Source of the DNA: Lactovum miscens
Lineage (GTDB): Bacteria; Bacillota; Bacilli; Lactobacillales; Streptococcaceae
Assembly (NCBI RefSeq): GCF_014202895.1
Contig: NZ_JACHHV010000001.1
Span: forward strand, 62,001-126,000
Length of the DNA: 64,000 bases
Direction of reading: 5' to 3'
Both the position numbers and the translations under genes were made by a program. The stretch's first letter is position 1. Each line of letters starts with the position of its first letter. Positions 41,906-57,486 of the stretch are shown here, in pieces. Under the pieces are notes generated by a model that saw only the letters and a list, made by a program, of their open reading frames with translations, was not told the DNA's origin and made no database searches.

Positions 41906-41933
41906 AAAGAACTCACTTCCCAGTAAGTTCTTT
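41904..41933 (-). terminator. Terminator of ydbC
   Basis: AAGAACT/AGTTCTT stem overlapping the ydbC stop, then seven T on the minus strand. Confidence 0.85.
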
Positions 41934-42128
41934 AACTAACTTTTGAAATTCCTCATTATTCAAGGTGATTCCTTTTCCCATCTTTGTGTGATCTGGTGAC
42001 CAAGTACGAATGTCAAACTTTGGATCTGCATCATTCCAAGAAACACGGTTTAACTCTTTTGTCCAGCCATTGGCAGTGATCGAAAGCTCAATTAGATGTT
42101 CTACAATTTCAAATTTTAAATCTGCCAT
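41913..42128 (-). CDS. ydbC: YdbC, PC4-like single-stranded nucleic-acid-binding protein
   Basis: A 71-residue protein of the YdbC/PC4 type: beta strands around FEIVEHLIELS, GWTKELNRVSWNDADPKFDI and the RTWSPDHTKMGKGITL turn, then a C-terminal helix. Lactococcal YdbC is known to bind single-stranded DNA as a dimer. ATG follows GGAGAAA. It lies 34 bases after nadR and may be co-transcribed. Confidence 0.9.
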   Translation of the reverse strand: MADLKFEIVEHLIELSITANGWTKELNRVSWNDADPKFDIRTWSPDHTKMGKGITLNNEEFQKLVKELTGK

Positions 42129-49291: not shown

Positions 49292-50346
49292 GGCAAATTG
49301 CAAATTTAATTTAGCCACCCCGATACATCTGAAATGGTGTCTGATACTTGAACATTTTTCTTGGATATTGATTCATCCAAGTCTCAATTTTAGCAACTGC
49401 TGAAGCTGTTGTTTGTTTTGTTCCTTTGGGTAAGAAACGTCTGATCATGCGGTTATGATTCTCATTGCTTCCACGCTCAAAGCTCGCATAGGCATGACAA
49501 TAGTAAACCGGACAAGTCACCGCCTCATGTAAACGGGCAAATTCACGACCATTATCTGACGTGAGGGATTCGAACTGAGTTTCCTTTTGAAGTGCTAAGA
49601 GTGCCGTATTGACAGATTGGGCAGACTTATCTGGAATCAGACGAATGATTTCAAAGCGTGTTTGGCGCTCTGTGAGCGTCAAAAGACAGTCATTTTTTTC
49701 TTTCGTCAACAGCACCGTATCGATTTCCCAATGGCCGAATGCTTCACGTTGATTAATTTTCTCTGGACGTTGGTCAATGGACAAGCCATAGGGACGCTTG
49801 GGGGGTGTTTTCCGAAGCTTCTTTGCTTTCTTATAATGAGGGTAAAGTAAATTATGGCATTTTACATCGAGCCAGCCTTTGTCTACCCAGTGATAGAGGG
49901 TGCGAAGGCAAACACCTGTCAGTTCTTGGAGAATGACTTCTAATGATTTTTTATCTCTGACACCTGCACTTATGGTTTCATTGAGGGTTGACGTGAGCTT
50001 AGAATGTCGGCCACAGTGACTTTTATTGGCGCTGTGGAATTCTTGTGCTTGATGTGCAGAGTACTTTGTCTTGGTCTTCAGTTGAACCTGTCCCCGCTTG
50101 AGTTCATGATGAATTGTCTGAGGGGCTTTATTCAAGCGCTGAGCGATCCGACGGTTACTTAGCTTCTCCTTGTTGTGCCAACGTTCAATCAACTGACGTT
50201 CTGTATAAGTAAGTTCCTTGCCTTTTGTGTTAAAATAACCTTGCATCTGAATTCCTTTTCTACTTTTTGTTCTTTCAAACTCAAGTATAAGAGATTCAGG
50301 TGTTTTTTTCTTGCTTCAGGTGGCTAAACTAATTTTACAATTTGCC
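49292..50346 (-). mobile_element. Intact IS30-family insertion sequence, 1055 bp
   Basis: Ends are imperfect inverted repeats: 49292-49319 and 50319-50346 match at 25 of 28 positions, both starting GGCAAATTG when read inward. One transposase gene fills the element and its stop codon lies inside the left repeat. A 13-bp duplication flanks it, which points to a recent and probably still mobile copy. Confidence 0.93.
49311..50246 (-). CDS. IS30-family transposase
   Basis: A 311-residue DDE transposase. N-terminal helix-turn-helix LTYTERQLIERWHNKEKLSN followed by RRIAQRLNKAPQTIHHELKRG; catalytic residues in HWEIDTVL (Asp), SLTSDNGREFA (Asp) and ERGSNENHNRMIRRF (Glu). Length is normal and no frameshift is seen. 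Ribosome site is weak. The gene fills its element. Confidence 0.95.
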   Translation of the reverse strand: MQGYFNTKGKELTYTERQLIERWHNKEKLSNRRIAQRLNKAPQTIHHELKRGQVQLKTKTKYSAHQAQEFHSANKSHCGRHSKLTSTLNETISAGVRDKKSLEVILQELTGVCLRTLYHWVDKGWLDVKCHNLLYPHYKKAKKLRKTPPKRPYGLSIDQRPEKINQREAFGHWEIDTVLLTKEKNDCLLTLTERQTRFEIIRLIPDKSAQSVNTALLALQKETQFESLTSDNGREFARLHEAVTCPVYYCHAYASFERGSNENHNRMIRRFLPKGTKQTTASAVAKIETWMNQYPRKMFKYQTPFQMYRGG

Positions 50347-55549: not shown

Positions 55550-55740
55550 GATTGTGTCCTTTGATAGCTTTCACTATCCCTTTCTTTTGTTTTTGGAAAT
55601 CTTGGCATGTACAAATGTAGATAGCTTTAATTTCACAAGTGTTCGTGATGTGGTCTTAACGGTCTTGTTCGTCCCGACTTTTCAGTCAGTCCATGGCCTG
55701 CCACGCTTTGTACGAAAATTTCGATAAATCAACATACATA
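55550..55740 (-). promoter_or_regulatory. rplK-rplA mRNA leader
   Basis: The leader is about 185 bases, more GC-rich than nearby spacers and with several potential stems (for example CTATC...GATAG near the ribosome site). L1-type autoregulation is expected for this operon; I cannot mark the binding site with confidence. Confidence 0.45.
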
Positions 55741-55743
55741 TTT

Positions 55744-55772
55744 ATGTTACCAAAAAAGACCTCTAAAATCAA
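55744..55772 (-). promoter_or_regulatory. Promoter of rplK-rplA
   Basis: Minus-strand TTGATT (55767-55772), 17 bases, TAACAT (55744-55749) preceded by TGG (extended -10). Confidence 0.68.
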
Positions 55773-55899
55773 GCAAATAAAATTTTTGAAAAGCTTTTTG
55801 GTTTTTATTTATATCATCGTCATCAGAACTAATTAAAGAGTAACTAGATAAAGTATTACTTGCCTGTCCTTTTGACTGTCCCTTGTATTTCCTTGATTT

Positions 55900-56311
55900 T
55901 TAAGGAACTGTGATAATAACACTTCCAGAGTTTAAGTTTCCAACATAAATTCTGTTAGACTTATTCAAACCTTGACGAACTTCATCTATCAAATTAAACT
56001 CTCGTAACTCTCTTTGGTTTGAATAACTTTTCTCTCACCACAACCTAAAACATCTTCAAGTTCGTCATTAGTTACTATAACATAAATAAATCCATCCTTG
56101 TCAGCAAATTTATTACGGATTGACAATGAAACCTATTCTTGAGGTAGACATGTAGGATTTTAGATTCATTCCTCATTTCACAATATTTTGACATGAGTCT
56201 GACTGTGTCTCCTTTTTTATTTTTTTCACGATAAGGATGAAATATTTTGGGATACTGATAAAAGTTTTCACTTATTATTACTTGGTCTATAGAAATTTTG
56301 TTAATAAGCAT
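55900..56311 (-). pseudogene. Frameshifted RepA_N-family replication initiator remnant
   Basis: Three successive frames rebuild the N-terminal domain of RepA_N plasmid/ICE initiators: NFYQYPKIFH and ESKILHVYLKNRFH from the ATG at 56311; then ADKDGFIYVIVTNDELEDVL in a second frame; then DEVRQGLNKSNRIYVGN in a third, ending at TAA 55900-55902. The order and spacing match the family; two frameshifts and missing downstream sequence make it a relic of a plasmid or integrated element. Confidence 0.8.
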
Positions 56312-56314
56312 ACC

Positions 56315-56490
56315 ATGTCTCCATTCAAATTATTCCGCCAAAAGCATTTGAATTTTTCTATTTGAATTTTATTTTAAGCAGCTAAAGGGAGTTGAACCCT
56401 TACTCTCCAATACAATGTATTTGAACACTTGCATATTTAATAAAGTCATAAAAATTTGGCGGAACCTTATTAAACAAAAGATGGAGACAT
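56315..56490. repeat. Two-tier inverted repeat upstream of the RepA_N relic
   Basis: Outer arms ATGTCTCCAT (56315-56324) and ATGGAGACAT (56481-56490); inner arms TTCCGCCAAA (56333-56342) and TTTGGCGGAA (56455-56464). Spacers between arm pairs differ (8 and 16 bases). The GGCGGAA...GGAGAC order resembles a tRNA-Leu D-arm, so the arms may be two opposed tRNA remnants. Confidence 0.5.
56378..56440 (-). pseudogene. tRNA-like 3' remnant with intact T-arm
   Basis: On the minus strand AAGGG-TTCAACT-CCCTT (56385-56401) is a perfect T-arm, followed by TAGCTGC like an acceptor 3' strand. No matching 5' acceptor GCAGCTA or full cloverleaf is found, so it is a fragment. Confidence 0.5.
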
Positions 56491-56513
56491 CTTATGTTTG
56501 GTCAAAGGCAAAT

Positions 56514-56599
56514 GTAAACCATATGAATTGAACCTACATATCTGATTGAACGGCCGTCTAATTAACAATCAGCTACTCTTCCATTTGAGCTAGGTCTAC
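56514..56599 (-). pseudogene. tRNA-Asn(GTT)-like gene carrying a 16-base insertion
   Basis: Acceptor GTAGACC/GGTTTAC pairs over seven positions (one G-U), then TA, a D-arm GCTC..GAGT, an anticodon loop TTGTTAA (GTT), and a T-arm GTAGG-TTCAATT-CATAT (one mismatch). About 16 extra bases, bounded by AAT repeats, interrupt the 3' side of the anticodon loop or stem. Without them the cloverleaf is close to normal length. Likely a decayed element-borne tRNA. Confidence 0.6.
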
Positions 56600-56602
56600 A
56601 TA

Positions 56603-56641
56603 AACAAAAAAAGAATAGATTTTTCCTATTCTCTTTTTGTT
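56603..56641. terminator. Bidirectional hairpin terminator
   Basis: AGAATAG/CTATTCT stem extended by A/T pairs, with A-run and T-run flanks. Confidence 0.75.
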
Positions 56642-56749
56642 TGTAATTTAATTTTAATGTCTAATTTGATTTAAATTGTTATTTCAAGAAATTCTTGACA
56701 CTTGCTGCTCATTTCAAAAGATCATTTATTTGTTATTTACACAATTTTT

Positions 56750-56962
56750 TCAATTCCTTTCGAGATAGTCCTGCCAGATCTGATCAAAGATTGCCAAATT
56801 AAAATAGAAAGTGGCTGAAGTTTCTAAATAGCTGGAAACTTCATCATAATCTTGTGAATGCTTAGGAAAGACGCTATCCTGAAATACTAGATTCGCAAGA
56901 CGCGTTTTATCATCAACCTCGTTTGGCGTTCGAAACTTCATTAAGTATTGATAAAATGTCAA
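56750..56962 (-). CDS. yozE: YozE-family protein (UPF0346)
   Basis: A 70-residue all-helical protein: [43 protein letters not shown], and DQIWQDYLE match the YozE family (SAM-like fold, unknown role, perhaps nucleic-acid binding). The start is TTG (56960-56962), overlapping the msrA stop (TTGA), so it is coupled to msrA. Confidence 0.9.
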
Positions 56963-57486
56963 ACTTGTCCACCCCAGTGTTTCAAAATAAATTCACGCCT
57001 ATCTGCAATTTCTTCAGCATAATCCTCTGGATGCTTTTTGTAAAAACCTTGATGGTAAGATTCTGCCGGCCAGAAAACCTTGGCAGCTTCAATTGAAGTT
57101 ACAATTATTTCTTCACCAAAACGTCCTGAAGCTTGAAGGGCAGCTTTAGAGTTTTCCGCAATCTGGCGCTGAGTGTCGTCCGTATAAAAAATTATTGGTC
57201 GGTAATTATCTCCACGATCCGCAAACTGTCCAAAAGCATCTGTTGGATCCGTCGTTTGCCAATAGAGTTCAACGAGATCACTATAACTAATTTTTTCATT
57301 ATCAAAGATAATTTCAACAGCTTCCGTGTGACCAGTAATATGTTGTTTTACTTGTTCATACGTGGGGCGTTCAAAGTCTCCACCCGTGTATCCTGATGTG
57401 ACCGTCAAAATACCATTTTGTTCTTCAAAAGGCTCAACCATACACCAGAAACAACCACCAGCAAAAATTGCTTTCTCTGTAGACAT
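56959..57486 (-). CDS. msrA: Peptide-methionine (S)-S-oxide reductase MsrA
   Basis: A 175-residue enzyme with catalytic Cys in [16 protein letters not shown] (residues 7-22), [15 protein letters not shown], and the [11 protein letters not shown] block. It reduces the S epimer of methionine sulphoxide and complements MsrB at 11 kb. Good ribosome site (GGGAGGAAAAA). In an operon with yozE. Confidence 0.96.

Follow-up and report, generated by a model that had tools for sequence, protein, structure and literature searches.

A decayed RepA_N replication initiator gene upstream of rplK in Lactovum miscens and its relation to a resident conjugative element

What lies in the short stretch of broken reading frames upstream of the ribosomal protein gene rplK of Lactovum miscens, and how did it get there? 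In the first-pass annotation of the window (the whole stretch of 64,000 nucleotides analysed here), three peptides in three different frames had been taken together as the remains of a RepA_N replication initiator, left in the chromosome by a plasmid or an ICE. All three peptides are present on the minus strand, in order from 56308 to 55909, and together they make up about 135 codons of the N-terminal (winged-helix) part of a RepA_N protein (55909..56308, minus strand), as recognised with the PF06970 profile, tblastn and a frame-aware alignment. The repA relic starts in frame -1 with the stretch that holds ESKILHVYLKNRFH (LINKISIDQV...VYLKNRF; 56129..56308), a piece recovered by tblastn and the frame-aware alignment, continues in frame -3 with DGFIYVIVTNDELED / LSIRNKFADKDGFIYVIVTNDELEDVLGCGERKVIQTK (56013..56126), on which the profile and the frame-aware alignment agree, and ends in frame -2 with DEVRQGLNKSNRIYVG / RELREFNLIDEVRQGLNKSNRIYVGNLNSGSVIIT (55909..56013), again from tblastn and the frame-aware alignment, all three on the minus strand. 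The interval proposed earlier, 55900-56311, does contain the relic, but it stops short of a decayed linker (55783..55908, minus strand) that in a tblastn extension weakly resembles the acidic linker of an intact RepA.

The 45-codon middle ORF alone scored 36.0 bits against RepA_N (PF06970; E 6.5e-9 in hmmscan), the curated cut-off of which is 30 bits. When the whole genome was searched with the profile, matches were obtained in two places, namely the relic (window 56010-56138, 36 bits, E 9.9e-9) and an intact gene on another contig, C5 (67 bits), and there was no match in 14 control genomes. The intact C5 RepA (368 codons; L013:7743-8849, minus strand; PF06970), used as a tblastn query, returned three ordered and collinear pieces of the relic with a combined E of 7e-36, and the first piece matches residues 28-93 of that protein at about 58% identity. 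The frameshift-aware search, which had been set beforehand as the refuting test, was strongly positive: the relic scored 413 against C5 RepA, compared to 43-61 when the same DNA was shuffled 15 times, and 81/144 residues were identical in the alignment. These results support the view that the region holds, in the chromosome, what is left of a RepA_N initiator from a plasmid or an ICE; the closest relative of the relic is encoded by a conjugative element resident in the same genome.

The relic is heavily damaged. Frameshifts are located at about 56127 and 56013, both within the DNA-binding domain, and a third frame change or a stop is found near 55905; we therefore regard it as a pseudogene of the RepA_N family and not as a working member. 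In place of the single ORF of about 300 codons that is usual for the family, the longest ORF left has 78 codons. The homology fades in the acidic linker and can be followed no further than 55783, about 10 bp short of the conserved rplK leader (55774). This end corresponds to about residue 173-221 of the 368 in C5 RepA, and the part from about residue 220 onwards, with the C-terminal DnaD-like domain, is absent. In the Rep of pSK41 the C-terminal domain binds primase and is essential for replication (PMC5703833), and since this domain is gone from the relic, the relic should not initiate replication. Over 125 codons, the relic and the C5 repA differ at 44, 23 and 63 of the first, second and third codon positions, respectively. 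This pattern suggests that the two copies diverged mainly while they were still protein-coding, and that decay was late relative to the split.

From what kind of element could the gene have come? In amino acids, the relic is 59% identical to C5 RepA over the common region, which makes C5 RepA the closest relative found, and 33-45% identical to the six other RepA_N proteins compared. The identities are taken from a single eight-sequence MAFFT alignment, in which these six (one from the sister species G003, one from a staphylococcal plasmid, one from an enterococcal plasmid and three from streptococcal phage records) were aligned with the relic and C5 RepA. An insertion of about 13 residues (around PYREKN..G..VR) is common to the relic and C5 RepA and is lacking in the other six, and the order of motifs is the same in the two. 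At the DNA level, the identity to the C5 repA is just 66% over 366 bp, and the relic is therefore no recent copy of the resident gene. No DNA similarity was detected between the region upstream of the relic and the region upstream of the C5 repA. Close DNA relatives of the relic were absent from the plasmid and phage collections (blastn), its N-terminal piece had no match in plasmids (tblastn), and searches of the genome and viral contig collections with peptide patterns gave no relatives of C5 RepA.

The C5 repA lies near a gene for a ParA-like ATPase, and the element carries a VirB4 of the CD1110 family (877 bits, cut-off 325) and a VirD4-like coupling protein of the CD1115 family (467 bits, cut-off 250), with a T2SSE-type ATPase gene also on the contig, further along from repA. 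The relaxase resembles the SAG1250 family with a score below the family cut-off. The element appears to be integrated, because xerS genes as well as recQ-like and murB-like genes (the last two read from translations) are found on the same contig. Two genes for tyrosine recombinases that score as XerS lie close together there (C5:27065-29997, corresponding to L221:17065-19997, minus strand; 500 and 417 bits, cut-off 267), where a single copy would be expected. Another observation made along the way is a highly similar pair of IS30-like transposase genes, one in the window (49311-50246, minus strand) and the other on C5 (L221:12680-13615, minus strand).

The relic had been described as sitting between ribosomal protein genes, which is not the case: it is flanked by rplK (ribosomal protein L11; 55124-55549, minus strand) on one side and by yozE/msrA (56750-57486) on the other. 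The yozE-like gene (56750..56962, minus strand) is conserved in sister genomes and scores 81 bits against YozE_SAM_like in Pfam, and next to it is msrA for methionine sulfoxide reductase A (56959..57486, minus strand). By MsrA, the nearest named loci belong to Lactococcus nasutitermitis and a Streptococcaceae MAG. The leader of rplK (55550..55774, minus strand) is conserved in the sister genomes as well, with identities of 73% to G002 and 72% to G004; it had no Rfam match over 55550-55774 and may serve the rplK-rplA operon as an autoregulatory leader. The upstream edge of this leader and the downstream end of the yozE-like gene form the edges of a segment of about 990 bp, between conserved flanks ending at 55774 and about 56765, which except for the repA homology and a tRNA-like sequence is without counterpart in the compared genomes. 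In the sister species G002 and G004, a gene for an M20 peptidase is situated between yozE and rplK. In G001 the peptidase gene is on the yozE side and rplK is on another contig, and in G003 rplK is adjacent to yozE with nothing between them and the peptidase gene is elsewhere; the last arrangement indicates that the rplK-yozE locus changes by other routes too. Although present in 4/4 sister genomes, the peptidase gene was not found in our genome, which is 99% complete. From the coincidence in place we infer that the insertion removed it.

Other traces of an element were looked for around the relic. When all ORFs of the C5 and G003 elements were compared with the window by tblastn, no element gene was detected beside the relic, including genes for integrase, relaxase and type IV secretion; apart from the repA relic, one short ORF in the window (41925-42122) was 42% identical to a G003 ORF. 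Of the streptococcal elements that have a tyrosine integrase, half are described as using the 3' ends of tRNA or housekeeping genes, for example, rplL (PMC4701971). The relic is upstream of rplK and not at the 3' end of a gene, and the earlier idea of a common integration site is thus not supported. Att repeats were not found either: there was no direct repeat of at least 8 bases between the two edges, and the repeat scan gave only short chance-like pairs.

The tRNA-like sequence (56512..56600, minus strand) had also been considered as an integration site. ARAGORN names it tRNA-Asn, but this identity was rejected, as the sequence is degenerate (39.8 bits vs 50-72 bits for 48 normal tRNAs), is enlarged in its variable region and is closest in alignment to the genome's own tRNA-Thr(TGT); contig C39 carries a canonical tRNA-Asn. 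The same contig bears a sibling of the tRNA-like sequence between a polA-like gene and eno (C39:3273-3358, corresponding to L010:1559-1644). Each copy comes just after a terminator-like hairpin; the one in the window has a T run and lies downstream of yozE (inverted repeat I4; 56602..56642, minus strand), and it was identified by repeat search and alignment and is absent from the list of a formal terminator scan. The two copies are 72% identical over 132 bp including the hairpin. With a model of the hairpin and tRNA-like sequence (R1), only these two copies had high scores in this genome (177 and 165 bits), and other genomes reached 32-44 bits, so a repeat family was rejected. As a whole, full-length degenerate pseudo-tRNA with a sibling elsewhere, the sequence is therefore not an attachment-site half-tRNA.

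An imperfect palindrome is located just upstream of the relic ATG (56306..56499; repeat search and folding), with ATGTCTCCAT...TTCCGCCAAA in both arms, that is, two 10-bp blocks repeated exactly with unequal spacers of 8 and 16 bases. On the minus strand, one of the arms covers the putative Shine-Dalgarno GGAG upstream of the ATG. The arm pattern is unique to this locus among 295 genomes of the family, and a looser pattern had 49 matches in viral contigs. We rejected a repeated MITE, given that the arm pattern is nowhere else in the 295 genomes and no target-site duplication was seen by eye, and also a strongly structured leader, as the predicted RNA fold is weak, 1.9 sd below shuffles (z -1.9). 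The palindrome may be a leader with a regulatory role, what is left of an origin, or an insertion that has nothing to do with the relic. Repeats of another kind accompany the intact genes: TTCCGAAAA is found three times upstream of the C5 repA with 22-bp spacing (L013:9003-9047, minus strand), and five times in or near the G003 repA, four of these inside the gene within TTCCGAAAATCGGAA palindromes and one upstream (L080:9015-9106 and 9584, minus strand). These repeats are candidate Rep boxes, common to two divergent initiators but differently placed. The relic does not contain TTCCGAAAA; TTCCGCCAAA occurs in both arms of its palindrome, and the resemblance between the two motifs is suggestive only. 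It would be most surprising if the palindrome were a leftover origin with Rep boxes that still bind C5 RepA, which would make the fossil a chromosomal decoy for replication of the C5 element.

In our view it is very likely that the relic is a pseudogene that keeps the N-terminal half of a RepA_N initiator, that its source was a mobile element akin to the C5 conjugative element but distinct from it, and that this element or a fragment of it entered the locus, the rest was deleted and the relic is decaying. A functional RepA of this kind would attach through its winged-helix N-terminus to Rep boxes within or immediately upstream of its gene, and its C-terminal domain would recruit primase, whereby the excised or plasmid form would be maintained. 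According to the proposed course of events, the element or element fragment would have entered the rplK-yozE interval, the rest of it would have been deleted, and the M20 peptidase gene would have gone with it or been replaced, the arrival of the repA piece and the loss of the peptidase probably belonging to the same event. The remaining 5' half of repA would since have been decaying by frameshifts, with no working initiator made. We prefer a whole element that was later deleted over a stray fragment, which is the main rival. There are, however, points against the preferred reading. Beside the relic there was neither an integrase or relaxase gene nor an att repeat or any further gene of an element, which leaves the arrival of a whole element presumed; the region upstream of the relic has no counterpart upstream of the C5 repA; and G003 has reached an arrangement with nothing between rplK and yozE and the peptidase gene elsewhere.

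The main rival, according to which a repA fragment alone was copied in by illegitimate recombination or gene shuffling and a whole element was never at the site, is consistent with the small size of what is left (just about 0.4-0.5 kb of repA in a unique segment of only about 990 bp) and with the lack of flanking direct repeats. Yet the DNA identity to the resident repA is too low for a recent copy of that gene. Furthermore, old mobile elements commonly lose their remaining parts. We consider a stray fragment possible, though clearly the less probable course. A prophage initiator of the RepA_N type as the source, instead of a plasmid or ICE, is unlikely. As many as 119 phage records have a RepA_N-like protein similar to C5 RepA, but the identity of the relic to those phage proteins that were compared is 35-39%, as opposed to 59% to C5 RepA, with which alone it has the insertion in common, and no phage gene was recognised beside it.

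Two further readings would keep the gene alive in some form, and both seem very improbable. The genome is a 61-contig draft and the frameshifts rest on the assembly, so they might be assembly errors in an intact gene. However, base errors do not explain a C-terminal domain that is wholly missing, the frame changes in at least two separate places, and rplK, rplA and msrA nearby are intact. Even less credit can be given to a short functional protein or RNA, in which the N-terminal domain or the palindromic leader would have been kept as a factor interfering with the C5 element. Such a role would agree with the few stops across about 400 bp, the coding-type pattern of codon-position differences and the palindrome over the putative start site, but the DNA-binding domain itself is interrupted by two frameshifts, no ORF exceeds 78 codons, promoter-like sites at the relic are no commoner than in shuffles, and the fold of the leader is the weak one described above.

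The locus documents turnover of a RepA_N conjugative element through one intact and one decayed copy in the same genome, in a little-studied genus of Streptococcaceae that has Lactococcus nasutitermitis and L. termiticola among its nearest named relatives. The decayed copy coincides with the loss of a conserved peptidase gene. Two proposals arising from the comparison are directly testable, namely a RepA_N subfamily with an N-terminal insertion and TTCCGAAAA as candidate Rep boxes of two divergent elements.

Compared to known systems, the relic has the N-terminal winged-helix domain of the RepA_N proteins of staphylococcal and enterococcal theta plasmids of the pSK41 type (PMC5703833), and is 33-42% identical to one staphylococcal and one enterococcal plasmid protein in the compared region. 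In pSK41 the Rep boxes are mid-gene and a leader structure is able to hide the start site (PMC5703833). Unlike the pSK41 type, the relic is without the C-terminal domain and no antisense RNA gene was recognised; such RNA control is apparently absent from RepA_N plasmids of other genera (PMC5703833). Among streptococcal ICEs, the Tn5252, Tn1549 and TnGBS families carry RepA_N genes, often with ParA (PMC4701971). They have the same domain as the relic, which is a truncated remnant outside any element. In the available part of that source, site-specific streptococcal ICEs mostly occupy 3' gene ends, for example those of rplL or of tRNA genes, with none described upstream of rplK, and a composite ICE, ICE_SagILRI005_rplL, is reported to retain a repA_N pseudogene (PMC4701971). 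The resident C5 RepA is like the relic in its domain, 59% identity, insertion of about 13 residues and motif order, but it is intact with its 368 codons and C-terminal part, a ParA gene nearby and three upstream TTCCGAAAA iterons. Next to this counterpart, the relic is a decayed mobile-element remnant of a kind already known, an ordinary genomic fossil.
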